64,000 nt of DNA from Falsarthrobacter nasiphocae (GTDB lineage Bacteria; Actinomycetota; Actinomycetes; Actinomycetales; Micrococcaceae): NCBI RefSeq assembly GCF_031456275.1, contig NZ_JAVDUI010000001.1, positions 1,880,965 through 1,944,964 of the forward strand, written 5' to 3'. The translations under genes were made by a program, and so were the position numbers. Below the pieces are notes generated by a model that was not told where the DNA came from, did no database searches, and worked only from the letters and a program-made list of their open reading frames with translations. Positions 4,107-34,276 of the stretch are shown in pieces. The stretch's first letter is position 1; every line of letters begins with the position of its first letter.

Positions 4107-4904
4107 CTAGTCCACTCGGCTGCTGCGGACAAAGGTCCAGACGAACGAGATGTAGGGCAGCTCCAGCACGTCATCCTCGCCGAATCCGAGCTCGCTGCGC
4201 AGGTAGTCGCTGAGGTTGGCCTCGGTGCGCTCCCGTTGCGCAGCTGAGGACGTTCGCCAGCTCGAGCGAGTCCGGGCGAGCTCGGTGATCTGCCCGGGCG
4301 TGGCCCGCTGCGAGAACCTCGCGACGGTGAGCTCGGGGGAGCGCCACCGCCCTCCCGGGCGCGGCGGACGCGCCGGGTCGTAGAAGACGTCTCCGGACCG
4401 CATGATGCGGCTGAGGCGGTGCACCCACGGCACCGTCACATCGAGTTGGTTCCACGCGAGGGCCAACCTCCCCTTGGGGCGGACGAGCCGCGCAGCCTCG
4501 ACGCCGGCCGCCACCGGATCCACCCAGTGCCAGGCCTGCGCGTACGTCACCAGGTGCCAGGACTGCGCTTCGAGCCCGGTGTCCTCCCCGCTCGCCACCC
4601 GCGTGGGGAACCCGCGGTCGCGGGCTCGCAAGAGCATGGCCTCGGAGATGTCGACGGCGACGAACTCCGCCGCCTCACCCCGAGCATCGCTGACGGCGCG
4701 CAGCTGCTCGGTGAAGATCCCGGTGCCCGCCCCGACGTCGGCCACGCGAAGGGACCCGAAGGTGTCCGCGAGCCCCGAGAGGCAGACGCCGGCAATCTCC
4801 GCCGGGTACCCAGGGCGGGCGAGGTCATACTCGCCAGCGCCGTGCGCGTACGCGCTCGCCAGCTCGGCGCGGCGCTCGGGGGCCACCCGGGGACCGTGAT
4901 GCAC
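4107..4904 (-). CDS. Class I SAM-dependent methyltransferase (type 11)
   Basis: A 265-aa methyltransferase. SAM motif I is clear (VADVGAGTG, about residues 54-62), followed by the acidic residue of motif II (AVDIS) and the type-11 motif LVTYAQAWHWVDP. The N-terminus (YDLARPGYPAEI) is typical of the subgroup of small-molecule methyltransferases annotated only as methyltransferase domain-containing proteins. Substrate is unknown. It is convergent with the quinone oxidoreductase gene and lies downstream of hisN on the same strand with an 18-base gap, so it could be the last gene of that operon. Confidence 0.82.
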   Translation of the reverse strand: MHHGPRVAPERRAELASAYAHGAGEYDLARPGYPAEIAGVCLSGLADTFGSLRVADVGAGTGIFTEQLRAVSDARGEAAEFVAVDISEAMLLRARDRGFPTRVASGEDTGLEAQSWHLVTYAQAWHWVDPVAAGVEAARLVRPKGRLALAWNQLDVTVPWVHRLSRIMRSGDVFYDPARPPRPGGRWRSPELTVARFSQRATPGQITELARTRSSWRTSSAAQRERTEANLSDYLRSELGFGEDDVLELPYISFVWTFVRSSRVD

Positions 4905-26900: not shown

Positions 26901-28049
26901 GGCGATGCCGTCGCTGACGCGGCCAGAGCGGCCGGAGCGCTGACGGGCGCTCGCCTGGCTGATCCGCTCGATGGGCAGGCGCTGGACCTTGGTCCGCGGC
27001 GAGTATCGCGAGATGCGCGCCGTGCCCGTGTCGATCACGTACTTGATGCCCGGCACGGTCAGGGACGTCTCGGCGACGTTCGTGGCGAGCACGATCCGCG
27101 GGCGGCCCGAGGGCTTGAAGATCCGCGACTGCTCCTCGAGGGACAGGCGGCCGTAGAGGGGGAGCACTTGCGTTCCCGTGAGGCGCCGGTTGCGCTCGAT
27201 ATGTCCCTCGAGCATCTGCGCCGCCTCGCGGATCTCGCGCTCGCCGGAGAAGAACACGAGAATGTCGCCGGGCGCCTCCTTGGACAGCTCGTCCACGGCG
27301 TCCCGAACCCCGTCGAGCGGGTCCCTGTCGTCCTCCAGCTCGTCGTCGAGCTCCTCGTCCGCGGCCGCCTCGAGCGGCCGGTACCGGATCTCCACCGGGA
27401 AGGTGCGCCCCGAGACCTCGATGATGGGCGCCAGGGCGGGCCCGTCGTCGCCCCCAGAGCCCGACGACGACCCGCCGGACTCTTCCGCCGCTGTCTCCGC
27501 GGCCCCCGCCGCGAAGTGGGCGGCGAAGCGCTCGGGGTCGATCGTCGCGGACGTGATGACGATCTTCAGGTCCGGCCGCTGCGGCATGATCCGCCGGAGG
27601 TAGCCCAAGAGGAAGTCGATGTTGAGGCTGCGCTCGTGGGCCTCGTCGACGATGATCGCGCCGTACTTGGTGAGGAGGGGATCGTGCTGGATCTCCGCGA
27701 GGAGGATGCCGTCCGTCATGAGCTTGACGCGGGTGGCGCGCGAGGACTCGTCCGTGAAGCGGACCTGGTAGCCCACGGTCTCGCCGAGCTTCTCCCCGAG
27801 CTCTTCCGCGATGCGCTCCGCGACGGAGCGGGCCGCGATACGGCGCGGCTGGGTGTGGCCGATGATCCGCGGGCGGCCGTCGGGGCCGGGCTCGGCGAGG
27901 CCGAGCTCGAGCAGCATCTTCGGCAGCTGGGTGGTCTTGCCGGAACCGGTCTCGCCGGCGACGATGACGACCTGGTTCTCGCGGACGGCCTTCATGATGT
28001 CGTCCCGGCGCGCGGAGACGGGAAGGGAAGCGGGGTACGTGATGTCCAT
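23958..28049 (-). CDS. hrpA: ATP-dependent RNA helicase HrpA (DEAH box)
   Basis: A 1363-aa DEAH-box helicase. Motif I GETGSGKTTQ is at residues 32-41, motif II is DEAHERSLN, then come motif III (TSATID), motif V/VI (ATNVAETSLTVPG, QRSGRSGRVSDG), the ratchet-like and OB-fold regions and the large DUF3418 C-terminal part typical of bacterial HrpA. In E. coli, HrpA rescues stalled or collided ribosomes on mRNA. A low-complexity Gly/Ala/Pro insertion (about residues 1010-1090) separates the C-terminal modules. The gene is divergent from the peptide/E1 cluster, sharing a 239-base intergenic region. Confidence 0.95.
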   Translation of the reverse strand: MDITYPASLPVSARRDDIMKAVRENQVVIVAGETGSGKTTQLPKMLLELGLAEPGPDGRPRIIGHTQPRRIAARSVAERIAEELGEKLGETVGYQVRFTDESSRATRVKLMTDGILLAEIQHDPLLTKYGAIIVDEAHERSLNIDFLLGYLRRIMPQRPDLKIVITSATIDPERFAAHFAAGAAETAAEESGGSSSGSGGDDGPALAPIIEVSGRTFPVEIRYRPLEAAADEELDDELEDDRDPLDGVRDAVDELSKEAPGDILVFFSGEREIREAAQMLEGHIERNRRLTGTQVLPLYGRLSLEEQSRIFKPSGRPRIVLATNVAETSLTVPGIKYVIDTGTARISRYSPRTKVQRLPIERISQASARQRSGRSGRVSDGIAIRLYSEEDFESRPEYTDPEILRTNLASVILQMASIGVAREAKEVAAFPFVQPPASRAVSDGVALLTELGALEKNGTLTPLGRKLSRIPLDPRLARMVLEAESRGALQEVVVLTAALTIQDPRERPSQDEGAKERAATLHKRFADDKSDFIGFLNLWVYLQEKQAELSSSAFRRLCKAEHINYLRVREWQELVTQLRRVLKQIRIPVPSSAVDPAGREDTIHQSLLVGLLGQIGAYDDAKREYAGARGIRFNVFPGSALFKKKPEFVMAAELVETSRLWARTVAAIDPAWVELVAPHLVKRQYSEPHWSRKQGAVMAYEKVTLFGVTLVSQRRVNYSRVDPALARELFIRHALVEGDWQTRHAFFHHNRAVLAELEDLETRTRRADLRLDDEALFEFYDARIGPKVVSERHFDSWWKQASREDPELLHLDRDSAASDAADELNIDDFPKTWPFGAVDLDLSYEFHPVAPGAAPNPADGVTVHVPVVILNQLSERPFLWLIPGLREELITALIKSLPKSERRHFVPAPDVARQALAKLTEDFSPETDDLPEALALTLRRLKGHVVDPSAFEWDKVPPHLRMTYRVLGARGQMLGESMDLAALQDELAPQVRTAVAASVDPTAMQAHLDAAKRRAPKKGQSGRGAQGTPADQGAARPQAGRKGGPGGKTASLPGPLATPAGTAAATSAARERTGLTSWPKDLDELPATVGGTSAGHAVTGYPALVDEKPASGKATAGVRIFSEREEADTAHRQGLIRLLVCTLPSPQRYVVDHLSNKERLTFSQNPHGSVAALVDDCTQAAVDKLLTRVPERLPRTKAAFDRVFDEIRAELIDTVFQVTAVVEQTLSRALTLTVAVKSPTPALAPLAADISSQLSQLVYPGFVAATGHEHLQHLPRYLQAAQVRLDRAPNAIAKDTATMTLIQDLEDAYDDAVARVPKTRAIPARLAEVRWMIEELRVSLFAPGMKTAYTVSEKRVRQALKGF

Positions 28050-28204
28050 GGTTGCACTCGAGTCTACCGAGCGGGCCCGAGAGCCGCGGCGGGTGGCGGG
28101 GCCGAGCGTTGAGCCGCCGTTGCTGCGCTAGCCGCACCCTTGCCTCGCCTGAGAGACAAGAAGAGCCGCAGTGGAGCGTCCTCACTGGGATAGAGACCAC
28201 AGAC

Positions 28205-28233
28205 TTGTCTTGTACGCATGGATGTGATATATA
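28205..28233 (+). promoter_or_regulatory. Promoter of the peptide/E1/ABC cluster
   Basis: TTGTCT (28205-28210), an exact 17-base spacer and TATATA (28228-28233) form the most consensus-like promoter in the window, set in an AT-rich pocket unlike the surrounding DNA. The start would fall near 28240, giving a ~49-base leader before the peptide ATG at 28289. Confidence 0.7.
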
Positions 28234-28288
28234 TTGCAGTAGGCGCGATCAAGCGTCGCTTGGCTCGAGTCGGAGAGAGGAGGGAGTC

Positions 28289-28348
28289 ATGACGTTTGCA
28301 GCAGCAGCCCCGGTCCGGGACATCCAGATCAGCTGGGGTGTCGTCTAG
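28289..28348 (+). CDS. Candidate 19-aa precursor peptide of an E1-modified ribosomal peptide
   Basis: A tiny gene encoding MTFAAAAPVRDIQISWGVV. It has a very strong ribosome binding site (GAGAGGAGGGAG, 28275-28286) four to eight bases before the ATG and sits just downstream of a consensus-like promoter, followed by a stem-loop and then an E1/MccB-like gene. The layout matches microcin C (mccA, hairpin, mccB) and pantocin-type loci, where a short unprotected peptide is adenylated by the E1 enzyme. The N-terminal part is hydrophobic (FAAAAPV) and the C-terminus polar then aromatic (RDIQISWGVV). It ends in Val, not the Asn required by MccB. That the peptide is made and modified is inference; the strong signal for translation is seen directly. 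Confidence 0.68.
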   Translation: MTFAAAAPVRDIQISWGVV

Positions 28349-28359
28349 GAACCTACGCG

Positions 28360-28392
28360 GTGTGCCGCATCGTCAGTGGCGGTGCGGCACAC
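28360..28392 (+). terminator. Stem-loop between peptide and E1 genes (attenuator-like)
   Basis: A perfect 10-bp stem GTGTGCCGCA (28360-28369) / TGCGGCACAC (28383-28392) with a 13-base loop, followed by TTCTT. It starts 11 bases after the peptide stop codon. A partial terminator here would give much more peptide mRNA than enzyme mRNA; in the microcin C operon a hairpin at the same place does exactly this and is controlled by the ribosome on mccA. Confidence 0.68.
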
Positions 28393-28423
28393 TTCTTGAA
28401 GTTTTCGCGGAAGGAGAGAATAG

Positions 28424-29566
28424 GTGCAGCTTAAGCTAAAAGAGTCTATTCCATACTATCGAATGGAAAGTGGCCGCATTCGGGTTGGCGCTGAAAGAGG
28501 CGTAACAATGGAGTTCGATGACCCGGATGGTCAGCTTCTGACGATGCTGGAGGTGTTGGATGGGCGATCCGTCGAGTCTATCGTTTCCCATGTGCGTCAG
28601 CGGCATTCTGGTCTTTCGGAAACCGATGTTCATGAGGGCCTTCGAGTTCTCGACCAGTACGGGTTCCTTAAGGATGTCGACGCGCGTGAGGGTTCAGTTG
28701 AGAAGTCTCTCATTCCGACGCAAAATTTTTTCGACGGGTTTCATCGTGTTTTCGATAGGAAGCGCCCGAGGGTTGAGGCTATTTCTGAGGCGCGCGTTGT
28801 TGTCCTTGGTCTAGGCGGTGGTGGTAGCAACGTTGCCACAATGCTTGTAGGGGCTGGGGTTCGGCAATTGACCATTCTGGACTTCGACCTCGTGGAGACA
28901 GGAAATCTCGGCCGGCAATTTCTATACAAACTCGATGATGTCGGTCTCTCCAAAGTGGACGTGGCGACACGGAACCTCTCGCGGATGGCAGAATCTCTGA
29001 ACATTACTCCGGTTGAGATGAAAGTTACGTCATCAGAAGAGCTTAGACCGATCATCAAGGGAGCGGACATCGTTGTCTGCTTGATCGATGAGCCGAGGTT
29101 CCTCATCCAGCGAATGGTGAATCAGGCCTGTGTTCGCGAGGGTGTGACCTGTGTCTATGGATTTTCGTTCAATTTCACGGGCCGAGTTTACTCCGTCATT
29201 CCGCATGACTCGGGGTGCTTCGACTGCCTCCAGGTATACTACTCCCGCGTCGATCCAGAATTCGCAGACCAGTTCAAAGCCCTGGAGGATAGTGGATTTA
29301 GACCACCCTCTTCGGCCTATCCTCCGGCGATGATGCAACTATGCAGTTCAATCTCGGATGAAGTGGTACGTCTTATCAACTCGTACAGTGAGCCTATGTC
29401 TGTGGGTCGGCAGCTCGAGGTCAACTATGTCAGTCGTCGGTGCGAAACGGTTCTTGAATGGGATCGTGACGAGCGTGACTGCCCTACATGTGGATCCGGG
29501 AACTATGACGACTGGCCGATCTTTCAAATCCAGAATCGATTCCACCCATCCGCAGGGCAGAAATGA
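28424..29566 (+). CDS. ThiF/MccB-like E1 adenylating enzyme with N-terminal RRE-like region
   Basis: A 380-aa E1-superfamily enzyme. Residues ~1-90 look like a PqqD/RRE-type winged fold (short strands SGRIRVG, GVTMEFDDPDGQLLTMLEVLDGRSVESIV, and helix DVHEGLRVLDQYGFL), as in MccB and PaaA. The adenylation domain has GLGGGGSN (129-136), the signature DFDLVETGNLGRQF (153-166) and later D222 in CLIDEP. Four zinc Cys are present in two CxxC pairs: C265/C268 and C353/C356. There is no obvious catalytic Cys for thioester transfer, which again resembles MccB. Known relatives adenylate a peptide carboxylate with ATP; the substrate here is most likely the upstream 19-mer. GTG start with AAGGAGA seven bases upstream. 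GC content is visibly below that of neighbours, with many codons ending in A/T, suggesting transfer. Confidence 0.85.
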   Translation: MQLKLKESIPYYRMESGRIRVGAERGVTMEFDDPDGQLLTMLEVLDGRSVESIVSHVRQRHSGLSETDVHEGLRVLDQYGFLKDVDAREGSVEKSLIPTQNFFDGFHRVFDRKRPRVEAISEARVVVLGLGGGGSNVATMLVGAGVRQLTILDFDLVETGNLGRQFLYKLDDVGLSKVDVATRNLSRMAESLNITPVEMKVTSSEELRPIIKGADIVVCLIDEPRFLIQRMVNQACVREGVTCVYGFSFNFTGRVYSVIPHDSGCFDCLQVYYSRVDPEFADQFKALEDSGFRPPSSAYPPAMMQLCSSISDEVVRLINSYSEPMSVGRQLEVNYVSRRCETVLEWDRDERDCPTCGSGNYDDWPIFQIQNRFHPSAGQK

Positions 29567-29581
29567 GGAGGTGCTTCGAAG

Positions 29582-30484
29582 ATGTTGCGCATCGAGTCCA
29601 TCTCAAAGCGGTACGGAAAGGGGCCGCTCGTCAATGACGCGGTCTCGATCGAGCTTCGTCCGGGCGAGCTGACGGCGCTCATCGGGCACAACGGGGCCGG
29701 GAAGACGACGCTCCTGTCCCAAATCTGCGGGGTCGTGCGCCCCACGAGCGGCGACATCCGGTTCGGGGAAGTCTCGTTCGTGTCCCAGCCGGACCTGGCG
29801 CGGCGCGCGTGTTCGCTCATGGCCCAGCTCCACGCGCCCATTCAGGGGATGACGCCGCGGGCCATGATCTCGTCCGTGGCGCGCCTCAGGGGCGCGTCGG
29901 CGGCGGACGCGCAGGCGCGGACGGCCGATGTCATCGAGCGGTTGAGCATCGGCGAGTGGGCGGACAAGCCCGGCCAGAAGCTCTCGGGCGGCCTCAGGCG
30001 CATGACGAGCTACGCCATGGCCGTGGTCCTGCCGCCGCCAATCCTCCTCATCGACGAGCCGACGAACGACGTCGACCCGCAGCGCCGCCCCGTCATCTGG
30101 CGGGACCTTCGGGGGCTCGCGGAGGACGGGCACATCGTCGTCGTCGTGAGTCACAACCTCCTGGAGGTGGAGCGCGCCGCTGACCGAGTTGTCCTCATGA
30201 AGGAGGCCAAGGTGGTCATGGACGGCACGCCCCAGAGCATTGCAGCGGCGGCCGGGGCGTCCACGCTCAAGGTGCTCTGGGCGGGGGAGTCCCAGGCAGA
30301 GGGCCTCCCGCCGAACCTCGGGGTTAGCGCCGAGCTGCCCCGCCAGACGAGCATCCTCCTCGCCCCGGCGCAGGTCCCGGACGCCGCTCGGTGGGCTGCC
30401 GGCCTCACCGAGTCCGGCGTGGCCGAGTCCTTCGTCCTCGAGCCGATGAGCCTTGAGAACGTCTACGGAAAGGCGCACGAATGA
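29582..30484 (+). CDS. ABC transporter ATP-binding protein of the peptide cluster
   Basis: A 300-aa ABC ATPase: Walker A GHNGAGKT (35-42), signature LSGGLRR (134-140), Walker B ILLIDEPTNDVDP (154-166), H-loop VVVVSHN. Residues ~215-300 form an extra C-terminal domain as in ABC-2 exporters of the drug/bacteriocin type. GAGGAGGTG lies right before the ATG, and the gene begins 15 bases after the E1 stop, so it is in the same operon. It probably powers export of the modified peptide and/or self-protection. Unlike the E1 gene, its base composition is like the chromosome, so the operon is a mosaic. Confidence 0.88.
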   Translation: MLRIESISKRYGKGPLVNDAVSIELRPGELTALIGHNGAGKTTLLSQICGVVRPTSGDIRFGEVSFVSQPDLARRACSLMAQLHAPIQGMTPRAMISSVARLRGASAADAQARTADVIERLSIGEWADKPGQKLSGGLRRMTSYAMAVVLPPPILLIDEPTNDVDPQRRPVIWRDLRGLAEDGHIVVVVSHNLLEVERAADRVVLMKEAKVVMDGTPQSIAAAAGASTLKVLWAGESQAEGLPPNLGVSAELPRQTSILLAPAQVPDAARWAAGLTESGVAESFVLEPMSLENVYGKAHE

Positions 30485-31254
30485 AGACCACCTCACCGGA
30501 CCTCGCCATCCCGAGGGGCCACAGCGCACTTCGGTCCTACGTCGAGCTGACGCGGTTCACGTTCCTGCGAAACAAGGGGGAGCTGCCGTTCTATCTCATC
30601 CTGCAGATGCTCGTCAGCGGCTCCGTCATCTTCGGCCTGGCCATTATGGCGGACACGTCCCAGGCGGAGTGGACGCGGCACCTGGCCGCTGGCTCGTGGG
30701 CACTGAGCCTCATGATGATCGGCTGCCTCGTGGTTCCCACCAAGATGGCGTCCTCCCTCCTCGATGGCTTCCAGGAGTTCCAGAGGACGCTGCCCATCCC
30801 GCGGCCCGTCCTCCTCCTGGCGGACGCCACCGTCTGGTCGCTCGCGTGTCTGCCGGGATTCCTCGTCTCCATCGGGCTCGCGGTTCTGCACCTGGGCGTG
30901 CGGCCCACGGTGGACGGCCGGACGCTCATCCTCGTCCTGGCCGCGCTCCTCGCGTACCTCATGATCGGCTACTCGGTGGCCCTGTGGATCCCGCCCGCCA
31001 TGGCCGGCCTCGTCCAGCAGGTGATCATCCTCGGCGCCATGCTGTTCTCGCCCATCACGTACCCCGCGGACCGGATCCCGGACTGGGCCGTGGTGGTGCA
31101 CAGCATCCTGCCCTTCACACCCGCAGCGAACCTCGTCCGGGAGGGCTTCTTCCCCACGGGGGCTGGCCCGGCGTGGACGGACCTCGTCTCGGTCGTCGCG
31201 TGGGGCGCGCTCTTCTTCGTCCTCGCCCTCAAGGGGGTCGCGCGGCGCGGCTGA
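30481..31254 (+). CDS. ABC-2 type permease of the peptide cluster
   Basis: A 257-aa membrane protein with six hydrophobic segments (about residues 35-58, 64-85, 108-135, 145-170, 178-198, 230-252), the ABC-2 exporter layout. The ATG overlaps the ATPase stop (ATGA), and no other membrane partner is nearby, so the two form one transporter. The motif around LFSPITYPADRIPDWAVVVHSILPFTPAANLVREGFF is typical of ABC-2 permeases for drugs, lipids or peptides. Last gene of the cluster, followed by two hairpins. Confidence 0.85.
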   Translation: MKTTSPDLAIPRGHSALRSYVELTRFTFLRNKGELPFYLILQMLVSGSVIFGLAIMADTSQAEWTRHLAAGSWALSLMMIGCLVVPTKMASSLLDGFQEFQRTLPIPRPVLLLADATVWSLACLPGFLVSIGLAVLHLGVRPTVDGRTLILVLAALLAYLMIGYSVALWIPPAMAGLVQQVIILGAMLFSPITYPADRIPDWAVVVHSILPFTPAANLVREGFFPTGAGPAWTDLVSVVAWGALFFVLALKGVARRG

Positions 31255-31268
31255 CGCGCAGGCGGGCC

Positions 31269-31353
31269 GGCACCCTGCACAGGGGTGCCCGCCGCCGCAC
31301 ACACGAGACGCGCGAGAGGCCCGCGTCTCCCGGGTCTGGGAGGCGCGGGCCTC
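31269..31353 (+). terminator. Double hairpin ending the peptide operon
   Basis: Two stems follow the permease stop. The first is GGCACCC (31269-31275) with GGGTGCC (31283-31289). The larger second one is GAGGCCCGCGTCTCCC (31316-31331) pairing with 31338-31353 with one mismatch. They stand between the operon and the convergent RclA-like gene and may serve both. Confidence 0.72.
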
Positions 31354-31397
31354 GCGCGGCTTGAGGCACCGTGACTGCGCCGCTGAGATCTACGTGA

Positions 31398-32843
31398 TTA
31401 GATCCCCGCGAGCAGCTCGTTGAGGCCCTCGCTCGAGGACGGGTGCGTGTAGATCGCGTCCCGCAGTGCCGTGTAGGGCAGGTCGTGCTTCATGGCCATC
31501 GTGACCAGGTTGATGACCTCCTGGCTGTCCACCGCGAAGAGCGTGGCGCCGAGGATCCTCCCGGAGGTCTTGTCGACCACGACCTGGTAGAAGCCGTCCG
31601 TCTGCCCGAGCGCCTTGGGCCGCGGCATTGCCGCCAGCTCGGCCACCTTCTTTCGGGCCACCGCCACGTCCCAGCCTTCGTCGGCCGCGCGCTCGCGGGC
31701 CTCGCGCTCCGTGAGACCCACGCGGGAGAACGGGGGCGTGAGGAAGGTCGTGCTCGGGACGGGCCCGCGGTCCTCCGTGGTGCGCCCGGACTCGCCCTTG
31801 CCCGCGAGCAGCTGGTCCTTGAGGATGCGGAAGTCGTCGAACGACACGTACGTGAACTGCGGCCCTCCCTTGACGTCGCCCACGGCCCAGACGCCGGGAG
31901 CGCTCGTGCGCAGGAGGGAGTCGACGACGACGGCGCCTGACTCGTCCGTCTCAACCCCCGCCTCGGCGAGGCCCAGCCCCTCGGTGGCCGGGATGCGGCC
32001 GGCGGAGATGAGCAGGACGTCCGCCTCGACCCGCTCGGCGCTGTCCCCGCCCGCGAGGTTCAGGGTGAGCGGCCCGCCGTCGTCGCCCGCAGAGACGGAC
32101 TCGAGGGTGCGCCCGAGCTTCAGGGCGACCCCCTGCTTCTCCAGGAGCTCCGCGATGGCCTCGGACGCCGCCTCGTCTTCGCGGGGCGCGAGGCGGTCCT
32201 CGCGGCCGATGACCGTGACCTCCGAGCCGAAGCCGGAGTACATGCTCGCGAACTCGAGGCCGATGAAGCCGGAGCCGAGGATTGCGAGGCGGCGCGGCAG
32301 CTCGGTGCGGTCGATGAGCTCGGTGCTCGTGACCACGCGGGGGTCCTCCAGGGGGTTCTCCGGCAGGCCCTCGATGCTCGGCAGGCGGGGCGTGGCGCCC
32401 GTGCCGATGACGACGTTGTCCGCCGTGATCCGAAGGCGGTCCTCGCCGGCCGTCACCTCGACGGTGCGCTCGCCCACGAAGCGGGCCCGGCCCGTGACCA
32501 CCGTGGCGCCCGGGGTCTCCACCATGGCCAGGTTCGCGGCGTTCATCTTCTCCCGGAGCGTCTCCTTGCGCTCCACGGCGCTCGCGTAGAACTCCTCAGG
32601 GGAGGGCGACGACGGGGCCTCGCGGCGCACGTCGGCACTGTGCACGAGGGTCTTGGTGGGCACGCAGCCGATGTTGATGCACGTGCCGCCGTACATGCGG
32701 GAGCTCTGCTCGATGAGCGTCACCTGGCGTCCCGCCTTGGCGAGCTGCACGGCGAGGGACTTTCCCGCCTTGCCGAAGCCGATCACGAGGGTCTCGACAT
32801 GGGTGGATTCGTGGGTGTCAGGGGTGCTGGTCGCGTCAGTCAT
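31398..32843 (-). CDS. RclA-like flavin disulfide reductase
   Basis: A 481-aa FAD-dependent pyridine nucleotide-disulfide oxidoreductase. FAD motif VIGFGKAGKSLAVQLAKAG (19-37), redox Cys pair GGTCINIGCVPTKTLVH (C55, C60), NAD(P) motif LGSGFIGLEFASMYSGFGSEVTV, second FAD motif APGVWAVGDVKGGPQFTYVS, and the C-terminal dimer domain with YTHPSSSEGLNELL. These stretches follow E. coli RclA closely (GFGKAGKTLAV, GGTCINIGCIPTKTLVH, THPSMSESLNDL); RclA is a copper(II) reductase that protects against hypochlorous acid and epithelial stress. The start 32843 begins with a Thr/Ser/His-rich tail before the FAD motif, with AAAGG upstream. Confidence 0.86.
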   Translation of the reverse strand: MTDATSTPDTHESTHVETLVIGFGKAGKSLAVQLAKAGRQVTLIEQSSRMYGGTCINIGCVPTKTLVHSADVRREAPSSPSPEEFYASAVERKETLREKMNAANLAMVETPGATVVTGRARFVGERTVEVTAGEDRLRITADNVVIGTGATPRLPSIEGLPENPLEDPRVVTSTELIDRTELPRRLAILGSGFIGLEFASMYSGFGSEVTVIGREDRLAPREDEAASEAIAELLEKQGVALKLGRTLESVSAGDDGGPLTLNLAGGDSAERVEADVLLISAGRIPATEGLGLAEAGVETDESGAVVVDSLLRTSAPGVWAVGDVKGGPQFTYVSFDDFRILKDQLLAGKGESGRTTEDRGPVPSTTFLTPPFSRVGLTEREARERAADEGWDVAVARKKVAELAAMPRPKALGQTDGFYQVVVDKTSGRILGATLFAVDSQEVINLVTMAMKHDLPYTALRDAIYTHPSSSEGLNELLAGI

Positions 32844-34148: not shown

Positions 34149-34195
34149 GAGAGCCCCCGCCCGTTCAGCGCATTGACTGACAGGCGGGGGCTCTC
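34149..34195 (-). terminator. Terminator of tRNA-Arg
   Basis: Stem GAGAGCCCCCGCC (34149-34161) / GGCGGGGGCTCTC (34183-34195), 13 bp, with TCAG/CTGA pairs inside the loop that can extend it. It starts six bases after the CCA end of the minus-strand tRNA gene. Confidence 0.82.
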
Positions 34196-34200
34196 TTGTG

Positions 34201-34276
34201 TGGTGCCCGCGACAGGATTCGAACCTACGACCTTCTGCTCCGGAGGCAGACGCTCTATCCACTGAGCTACGCGGGC
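34201..34276 (-). tRNA. tRNA-Arg (anticodon CCG), CCA encoded
   Basis: Reading the minus strand: acceptor GCCCGCG pairs with CGCGGGC; D-arm region TAGCTCAGTGGATAGAGC; anticodon stem TCTGC/GCAGA with loop CTCCGGA giving anticodon CCG; T-arm with GTTCGAATC; discriminator A and genomic CCA (34203-34201). Total 76 nt. It decodes CGG, a frequent Arg codon in high-GC genomes. argS, which charges it, lies next door on the other strand. Confidence 0.95.

Follow-up and report, generated by a model that had tools for sequence, protein, structure and literature searches.

The window, a stretch of 64,000 nucleotides from the single-contig, 2.195-Mb genome of Falsarthrobacter nasiphocae, contains a compact cassette with the following features.

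28051..31404, strand not assigned: inserted cassette of 3.35 kb, in place of which the same-genus genome G002 (L119) has ~118 bp between the flanking genes (blastn)
28278..28283, plus strand: Shine-Dalgarno sequence AGGAGG, 6/6 match, with a 5-base spacer before the peptide ATG
28289..28348, plus strand: precursor peptide gene, from ATG at 28289 to a TAG ending at 28348, encoding 19 aa (MTFAAAAPVRDIQISWGVV) with a predicted Trp16-Val19 ring, by analogy with IndF (PMC12150305)
28360..28392, plus strand: hairpin of 15 pairs between the peptide gene and the E1 gene, MFE -34.7, z -3.0
28424..29566, plus strand: E1/ThiF-like enzyme of 380 aa with a GTG start, Pfam ThiF 2.2e-48
29582..30484, plus strand: ABC transporter ATPase, probable exporter, PF00005 3.4e-25, with a homologue near E1 in related loci
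30481..31254, plus strand: ABC-2 type permease, partner of the ATPase, PF12698 3.1e-10 and PF01061 5.3e-9

The cassette contains the peptide, E1, ATPase and permease genes only, and its definition as a unit of peptide, E1 and exporter follows from two comparisons. Positions 28051-31404 are absent from G002, in which the flanking genes (by reading, DEAH-helicase-like and pyridine nucleotide-disulphide oxidoreductase-like) adjoin, and homology of G001 to the window ends at 28071 and restarts at 34152. Neither an E1 relative (E <= 1e-25) nor an ATPase relative (E <= 1e-60) was found in two other genomes of the genus. The GC content of the E1 gene (52.6%; GC3 56%) is well below that of the ABC genes (69-70%; GC3 91-93%) and of the window (69.7%), and thus the E1 part looks newly arrived and the exporter does not. 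Base composition suggests that E1 and peptide may have a different history from the exporter, the ATPase of which was closest, among the loci compared, to those of the actinobacterial WW clusters described below (55% to L021). The sole tRNA found in the window, a tRNA-Arg (CCG) at 34201-34276 on the minus strand, lies ~3 kb from the right end of the cassette. A second ThiF-domain match in the same genome (L002, C1:2133710-2134123), within a 535-aa frame and 33% over query residues 119-259, is probably an unrelated ThiF/MoeB-type protein. The best reading of the locus is a minimal RiPP cassette without a dedicated protease.

The peptide MTFAAAAPVRDIQISWGVV ends in ISWGVV, lacks Asn, Cys, Glu and Lys, and carries Trp at position 16 of 19, that is, fourth from the C-terminus, as in indolylamide RiPPs. 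MccB turns the Asn of its precursor via a succinimide into an N-P linked nucleotide, and to our knowledge all MccA-type peptides end in Asn. The first-pass annotation of this DNA had read the peptide as ending in ...QISWGVV rather than in Asn, and had held the Asn-succinimide reaction to be impossible; the translation confirms both points, as there is no Asn anywhere in the peptide. Another small Asn-ending gene beside E1, named in that annotation as the finding that would speak against this substrate, did not appear: positions 27950-28520, 29500-29660 and 31200-31420 contained, on both strands, no ORF of 5-80 aa (ATG, GTG or TTG start) ending in Asn. Scans of 28050-28450 for promoters and terminators returned nothing, the simple terminator scan seeing no T-rich tail. 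The hairpin that follows the peptide gene is possibly an attenuator favouring the peptide mRNA, and a structure at this place has z <= -2 in 14 of 22 loci and a negative z in 22/22; we take it as a structural hint only.

The AlphaFold2 model of the E1 enzyme (pLDDT 90.7, pTM 0.87) matched MccB with a Z of 32.4 (rmsd 3.6 A, 330 aligned, residues 1-358) and PaaA with a Z of 26.3, and MccB was the best PDB relative by sequence as well as by fold. Because the MccB match extends across residues 1-358, the N-terminal peptide-binding (RRE-like) region is present in the modelled enzyme. The VIA-align list was dominated by the ThiF core, such that the absence of other folds from it is uninformative, and of 32 models from the defence-system library that matched the E1, the 25 listed are all named E1-E2 and cover the ThiF core.

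Relatives of the enzyme occur in Actinomycetota and Bacillota. A single-protein search of genome contigs gave 49 pattern matches, none of them a relative, and relatives were collected instead with a profile from a four-sequence alignment, of which the best 80 of 199 were taken. Among these best 80, E1s with 38-47% identity occurred in Mobiluncus, Corynebacterium, Actinomyces, Tessaracoccus, Nonomuraea and others, as well as in Streptococcus, Lentilactobacillus and Amphibacillus, with Niallia also found separately; the 47% refers to the best segment only of L055, an E1 broken by a frameshift. In near full-length alignments the window E1 was 37-43% identical to its relatives and about equally far from the Trp-clade E1s defined below. 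The family yielded an E1 match in 1/395 genomes, the window genome itself (E <= 1e-25), and at E <= 1e-40, own genome included, matches occurred in 6/396 genomes of the order and 2/394 of the class. At the same threshold, 10/284 Streptococcus genomes had an E1 match (six with Trp-type and four with ...VEG/...VEGR peptides) and 9/284 matched the ind-type E1. Phage records gave 9 E1 matches, each with <=59% of the query covered, and viral contigs gave 8, of which five aligned over residues 1-346 at 26% identity and the other three were partial (31-39% over ~100 residues).

Upstream of related E1s lie peptides of ~20 residues with WW ends (WWIII, WWIVF, WWIIV, WWILF) or SW/LW ends (SWGVF, SWGII, SWIVF, SWVIV, LWVVF), and ind-type peptides end in NWYFI or NWNFI. 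Trp is fourth from the C-terminus in all 30 tabulated loci and in 23/23 distinct peptides. In those 23, it is preceded by W (13), S (6), N (3) or L (1) and followed by I (14), G (4), V (2), Y (2) or N (1). The peptides nearest to that of the window are MSFTVNRVPTDKKISWGII, from the same order and at the same place (L094), and the streptococcal MKNIQVRKVIAKTDISWGVF; these nearest peptides (L094, L015) retain the Trp and an aliphatic or Phe C-terminus, whereas R10 and D11 are not conserved in them. Some loci are near copies (e.g., L021/L022, L015/L016/L026/L105, L027/L106), and thus locus counts do not equal independent events. L055 was counted among the peptides and left out of the E1 alignments. 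The streptococcal E1 at L027 4986-6122, also seen in L106, which is probably the same genome, has an early in-frame TAG beside an intact WWIIV peptide. Comparison of last residues across homologous loci, the check suggested by the first-pass annotation, told against its expectation, as non-Asn ends are common among short-peptide E1s.

Phylogenetic analysis grouped the E1s by their peptides. In a tree of 44 rows, all 22 that have a Trp-fourth peptide fell into one clade against 22 others with support of 95/91; in an earlier tree, which included a broken IndF-type row, the Trp clade had 21 rows at 100/99. The IndF pair was sister to the rest of the clade (89/88, 44-row tree), and 17 rows, the WW type with streptococcal SW/LW rows nested among them, formed a clade of their own (100/96). 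Outside these 17 rows lay the E1s of the window, L094 and L023, in no firm order, and in both trees the window E1 had no firm place near the base of the Trp clade. By tree path the WW-type E1s are nearer the window than IndF is; EnfB itself is not in the tree. MccB and a Pantoea E1 lay outside the Trp clade on long branches. Left out of both trees as near-identical were L016, L022, L026, L093, L105 and L106; the second tree was also built without L048, L102 and L006, and the rows of L027, L102, L106 and L107 are E1s from open pieces. L095, from the same order as the window and not in the trees, has an E1 of 32% identity in which position 226 is not aromatic and position 296 is Ser/Thr, and its candidate peptide, MLKKTKTTYSASAGTAKG, has no Trp.

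The Trp-clade list was built from E1 similarity and the peptides were then chosen by eye or with a Trp filter, and loci with other E1 types and resampled sequences were therefore run as controls for an automatic peptide test (within 450 bp upstream of E1, an ORF of 15-40 aa that has a Shine-Dalgarno match and carries Trp as its fourth-last residue). The test was passed by 27/28 Trp-clade loci, window included, compared with 117/5600 first-order Markov resamples and 1/41 loci with other E1 types; the 28th locus, L017, has a Trp-type ORF with a Shine-Dalgarno match of 3 of 6. That the window ORF is not a gene, or that the E1 acts on another protein, is very improbable. This exact ORF occurs in one genome only among those compared and 19 aa is short, but its Shine-Dalgarno sequence is perfect and its position and C-terminal pattern are those of the loci that passed, far beyond the resampled rate. 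Moreover, the ORF list of the cassette shows no apparent gene for a ubiquitin-like protein or a sulphur carrier. We conclude that the window ORF is very probably the substrate of the E1, a possibility already raised in the first reading of the sequence.

Rajput et al. 2025 established by NMR that IndF of Streptococcus pneumoniae forms a bond between the W6 indole N and the C-terminal residue, I9, in the core EDTTNWYFI, and a W6A substrate gave no conversion (PMC12150305). Ala variants of IndF at K256, Y228, T298 and K179 lost most activity and Q167A lost little, with Y228 or K256 proposed as the general base (PMC12150305). IndF or a near copy is carried by L124, L125 and L126; L124 and L126 encode the core EDTTNWYFI, and the L124 E1 equals IndF at all five positions with identical numbering. 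By alignment, IndF Q167/K179/Y228/K256/T298 correspond to Q165/K177/F226/R254/S296 of the window enzyme, in which the Lys at 177 is kept and F226, R254 and S296 are conservative changes. The proposed base, Tyr or Lys in IndF, is thus Phe or Arg in the window, which argues against simple carry-over of the base.

Positions that mark the clade were sought with our own cut-offs (93% inside, 35% outside, by residue groups) in 28 Trp-clade rows, of which the window is one, versus 24 others. Eight positions separated the clade (window residues G133, I221, F226, Y245, S248, L269, S296 and T355), and two of them, F226 and S296, are IndF Y228 and T298, which are two of the three IndF residues close to Trp/Ile that proved important. 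Position 226 is F/Y and position 296 is S/T in 28/28 Trp-clade E1s. When the control was widened to 52 other E1s, position 226 was aromatic in 3 and position 296 was Ser/Thr in 4, and 7/8 positions still passed, with position 269 failing to separate; R254 is not specific, as Arg/Lys is found there in 14/52. Two Paenibacillaceae E1s outside the clade, L033 and L050, carry both an aromatic 226 and Ser/Thr 296, and thus the pair is not proof of Trp chemistry; the L033 peptide (4671-4733) ends in ...TTGLAFN and no peptide was found at L050. The MccB residue at 226 is Asn or Phe, varying with the alignment.

Comparison with known systems places the window among its relatives without assigning it to one of them. 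Microcin C resembles it in the MccB fold (RRE plus adenylation) and a short precursor, and in E. coli a hairpin likewise follows the microcin C peptide gene. Unlike the window, with no Asn and an ABC exporter, microcin C has an Asn-ending precursor, an MFS exporter and another active-site signature. In pantocin A (PaaA) and GRC (GrcB), a ThiF-like enzyme similarly activates a peptide carboxyl. Pantocin forms its bicycle from Glu residues. Both Glu and Cys are required for the GRC thiolactone (PMC12250964), and the window peptide has neither.

The ind system is closer. IndF, like the window enzyme, is an RRE-ThiF fusion and belongs to the same 22-row E1 clade, and IndA likewise has Trp fourth from the C-terminus and an aliphatic last residue (PMC12150305). 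By contrast, the IndA core is NWYFI behind a longer acidic leader whereas the window core is SWGVV, the ind cluster has an M16 peptidase whereas the window cassette has none, and the ind-type E1 is distant from the window E1 (31% over 243 residues of piece L102). Enterofaecin, as described in PMC12250964, shares a peptide of ~20 aa with the same C-terminal layout, and the catalytic Arg/Lys/Asp trio given there for EnfB, R167/K180/D225, has equivalents in window R164/K177/D222 with the same spacing (13 and 45). WW-type E1s, with which EnfB is placed by description and not by sequence, are 38-43% identical to the window E1, and both have ABC exporter homologues. The window differs in lying outside the 17-row WW clade, in lacking the M50 protease gene present in 17/17 WW loci, and in a core that keeps the Trp of the EnfA motif WWI[IV]x but not its second Trp and Ile, with Gly at the place of EnfA Ile19. 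The (V/I)RKA leader motif described in PMC12250964 is also absent, residues 9-12 of the window peptide reading VRDI. Streptococcal SWGVF/SWGII clusters (L015, L016, L026, L105, L107) share both the ISWG[VI]x end and the E1-ATPase-permease order without a protease, but their E1s (L015 and L107 in the trees) nest within the WW clade and the window E1 does not; the SWG end thus either arose twice or is ancestral. We conclude that the window locus has Trp-clade features and is to be filed under neither enterofaecin nor ind, because it lacks the strict enterofaecin motif and the ind cluster make-up.

The chemistry that we favour, and consider rather more probable than the alternatives taken together, is ATP-dependent adenylation of Val19 followed by closure on Trp16 as an indolylamide and export through the ABC transporter. 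The N-terminal RRE-like domain of the E1 would hold the leader part of the 19-mer, and the ThiF domain would use ATP/Mg to adenylate Val19 at its C-terminal carboxylate. Trp16, which lies three residues back, would then attack the acyl-AMP through its indole N1 and close an indolylamide ring of four residues (Trp16-Gly17-Val18-Val19). One water would be lost (-18.011 Da), taking the predicted monoisotopic mass from 2031.061 to 2013.051, or from 1900.021 to 1882.010 for the peptide without Met, and the product would exit through the two-gene exporter. C-terminal activation, ring closure, the attacking nitrogen and export are all predicted steps. A macrocycle had been among the alternatives listed in the first-pass annotation; another of them, modification of Asp/Arg within RDIQISW, was set aside, as R10 and D11 are not conserved in L094 and L015. 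Thiocarboxylate formation was also set aside, as no sulphur-supplying enzyme is apparent in the cassette.

The most serious competitor, although an unlikely one, is a backbone imide, in which the amide N of Gly17 would attack the activated carboxyl of Val19. According to PMC12250964, EnfB of E. faecalis adenylates the C-terminus of the 21-aa EnfA (WWIVI) with one ATP, attack by the Ile19 backbone N gives a cyclic imide, amidation occurs if amines are present, and EnfA Trp17 and Trp18 are crucial for binding and catalysis. By path, the window E1 has its nearest relatives among the WW-type E1s, whose peptides and catalytic spacing fit EnfB, and an imide and an indolylamide have the same mass change, such that mass alone cannot tell them apart. 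Against the imide, the residue that would give the nitrogen varies (I, G, V, Y, N) while the Trp is invariant in the 23 distinct peptides, a pattern of conservation that favours Trp as the nucleophile, although Trp could be conserved for binding only. Moreover, the sister enzyme IndF uses the indole N, and Rajput et al. state that more detailed NMR work is required to define the exact enterofaecin structure (PMC12150305). The wider control of 52 E1s required no change in the weight given to either the indole or the imide.

Capture of the acyl-AMP by an external nucleophile such as an amine or thiol, leaving an amide or thioester end, is less probable still. EnfB amidates in vitro when supplied with amines, as PMC12250964 reports, and MccB is reportedly used for C-terminal thioesterification of proteins (PMC13255007); however, the 3.35-kb cassette shows no apparent enzyme for supplying an amine or sulphur, and a conserved Trp would not be expected. 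Least probable of all is nucleotidylation of the peptide end as in microcin C: MccB being the best PDB relative speaks for it, but the peptide has no Asn, MccB lies outside the Trp clade with differing active-site stretches, and the window exporter is not of the MFS type found beside mccB. We therefore retain the indolylamide between Trp16 and Val19 as the working model.

Exporter and protease are exchangeable around this core, as an MFS-like gene replaces the ABC pair at the L094 locus (by reading, in the larger stretch L121), an M16-like peptidase was seen by eye at L102, of the ind type, and WW loci have M50. Peptide plus E1 is the constant pair. The M50-type protease gene, with HExxH present in six query proteins, adjoins E1 in 17/17 WW loci and in 0/10 SW/LW loci, window included; given near-copy loci and only one or two changes on the tree, the coupling of WW with M50 is a lead and not a law.

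Other E1 groups carry short peptides of their own. VEGR-type E1s, with an ABC ATPase next to E1, formed a separate clade (100/100, earlier tree), and their peptides of 16-19 aa end in ...VEGR, ...PSGR or ...VEPR (L044 1143-1193, L047 4819-4869, L048 4268-4318, L051 4817-4867, L004 3825-3884). A Pro-Gly/Leu-Gly group has 20-aa peptides ending in SFPG, SFLG, ALPG or GVPG (L028 1575-1637, L030 4779-4841, L005 3869-3931, and two copies in L032, 4692-4754 and 4832-4894). Upstream of the E1s of L035, L037, L039 and L045 lie related peptides (MKKIKIKKVEKLV...) ending in HHN, HHA, HYF and HNA, and thereby Asn and non-Asn ends occur within one E1 clade; judging from the peptide ends, a switch between nucleotidylation and another reaction is possible there. 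Three tandem copies of MKKIVVRKLATVTVPQLRPGT precede a Priestia plasmid E1 (L006 3600-3876), and an Exiguobacterium plasmid (L007 3491-3786, minus strand) has, by eye, three nearly identical genes for 20-aa peptides that are transcribed divergently from E1, the copy nearest E1 being MKTVVIKKNSVRAKVVLGYN.

Short-peptide E1s without a C-terminal Asn are thus common (WW/SW types, ...VEGR, ...SFPG, ...HHA, ...AGGA). The earlier proposal that this peptide implies a new reaction for short-peptide E1s did not hold, as non-MccB chemistry has been published for EnfB and GrcB (PMC12250964) and for IndF (PMC12150305), and the window reaction is therefore no first for the enzyme class. The reaction class is already in print (2024-2025, other bacteria) and the locus is a stripped-down variant. 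New here are an SWGVV form that falls outside the WW group, a cassette of four genes that has no protease and for which an empty site is seen, the link between Trp and E1 clade, and the coupling of WW with the M50 protease. Neither the SWG type nor actinobacterial members were found in print, within the main texts of a library that has few subscription papers.

The analysis ties the imide chemistry of EnfB and the indolylamide chemistry of IndF to one enzyme clade and one conserved substrate residue, and shows that clade in actinobacteria as a four-gene inserted cassette. The link between clade and Trp makes the question of the enterofaecin/EnfB structure directly testable, and the window substrate, with one Trp and a Gly, should allow the imide and indole mechanisms to be told apart cleanly. 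Chemists, too, would find use for an enzyme able to acylate the indole N, a poor nucleophile, on short peptides without protecting groups. As the window cassette has no protease, its product may be the lariat-like peptide at its full length of 18-19 residues, and a role for it as signal or antagonist is a guess. The chances seem evenly balanced that the Trp-clade E1s of Actinomycetota and Bacillota (ind, WW/enterofaecin, SW and LW) all make a ring from the Trp indole to the C-terminus. If they do, the enterofaecin product, for which a backbone imide has been reported, would instead be an indolylamide, and no form of the family smaller than the window cassette, with its peptide, cyclase and exporter, would be known.
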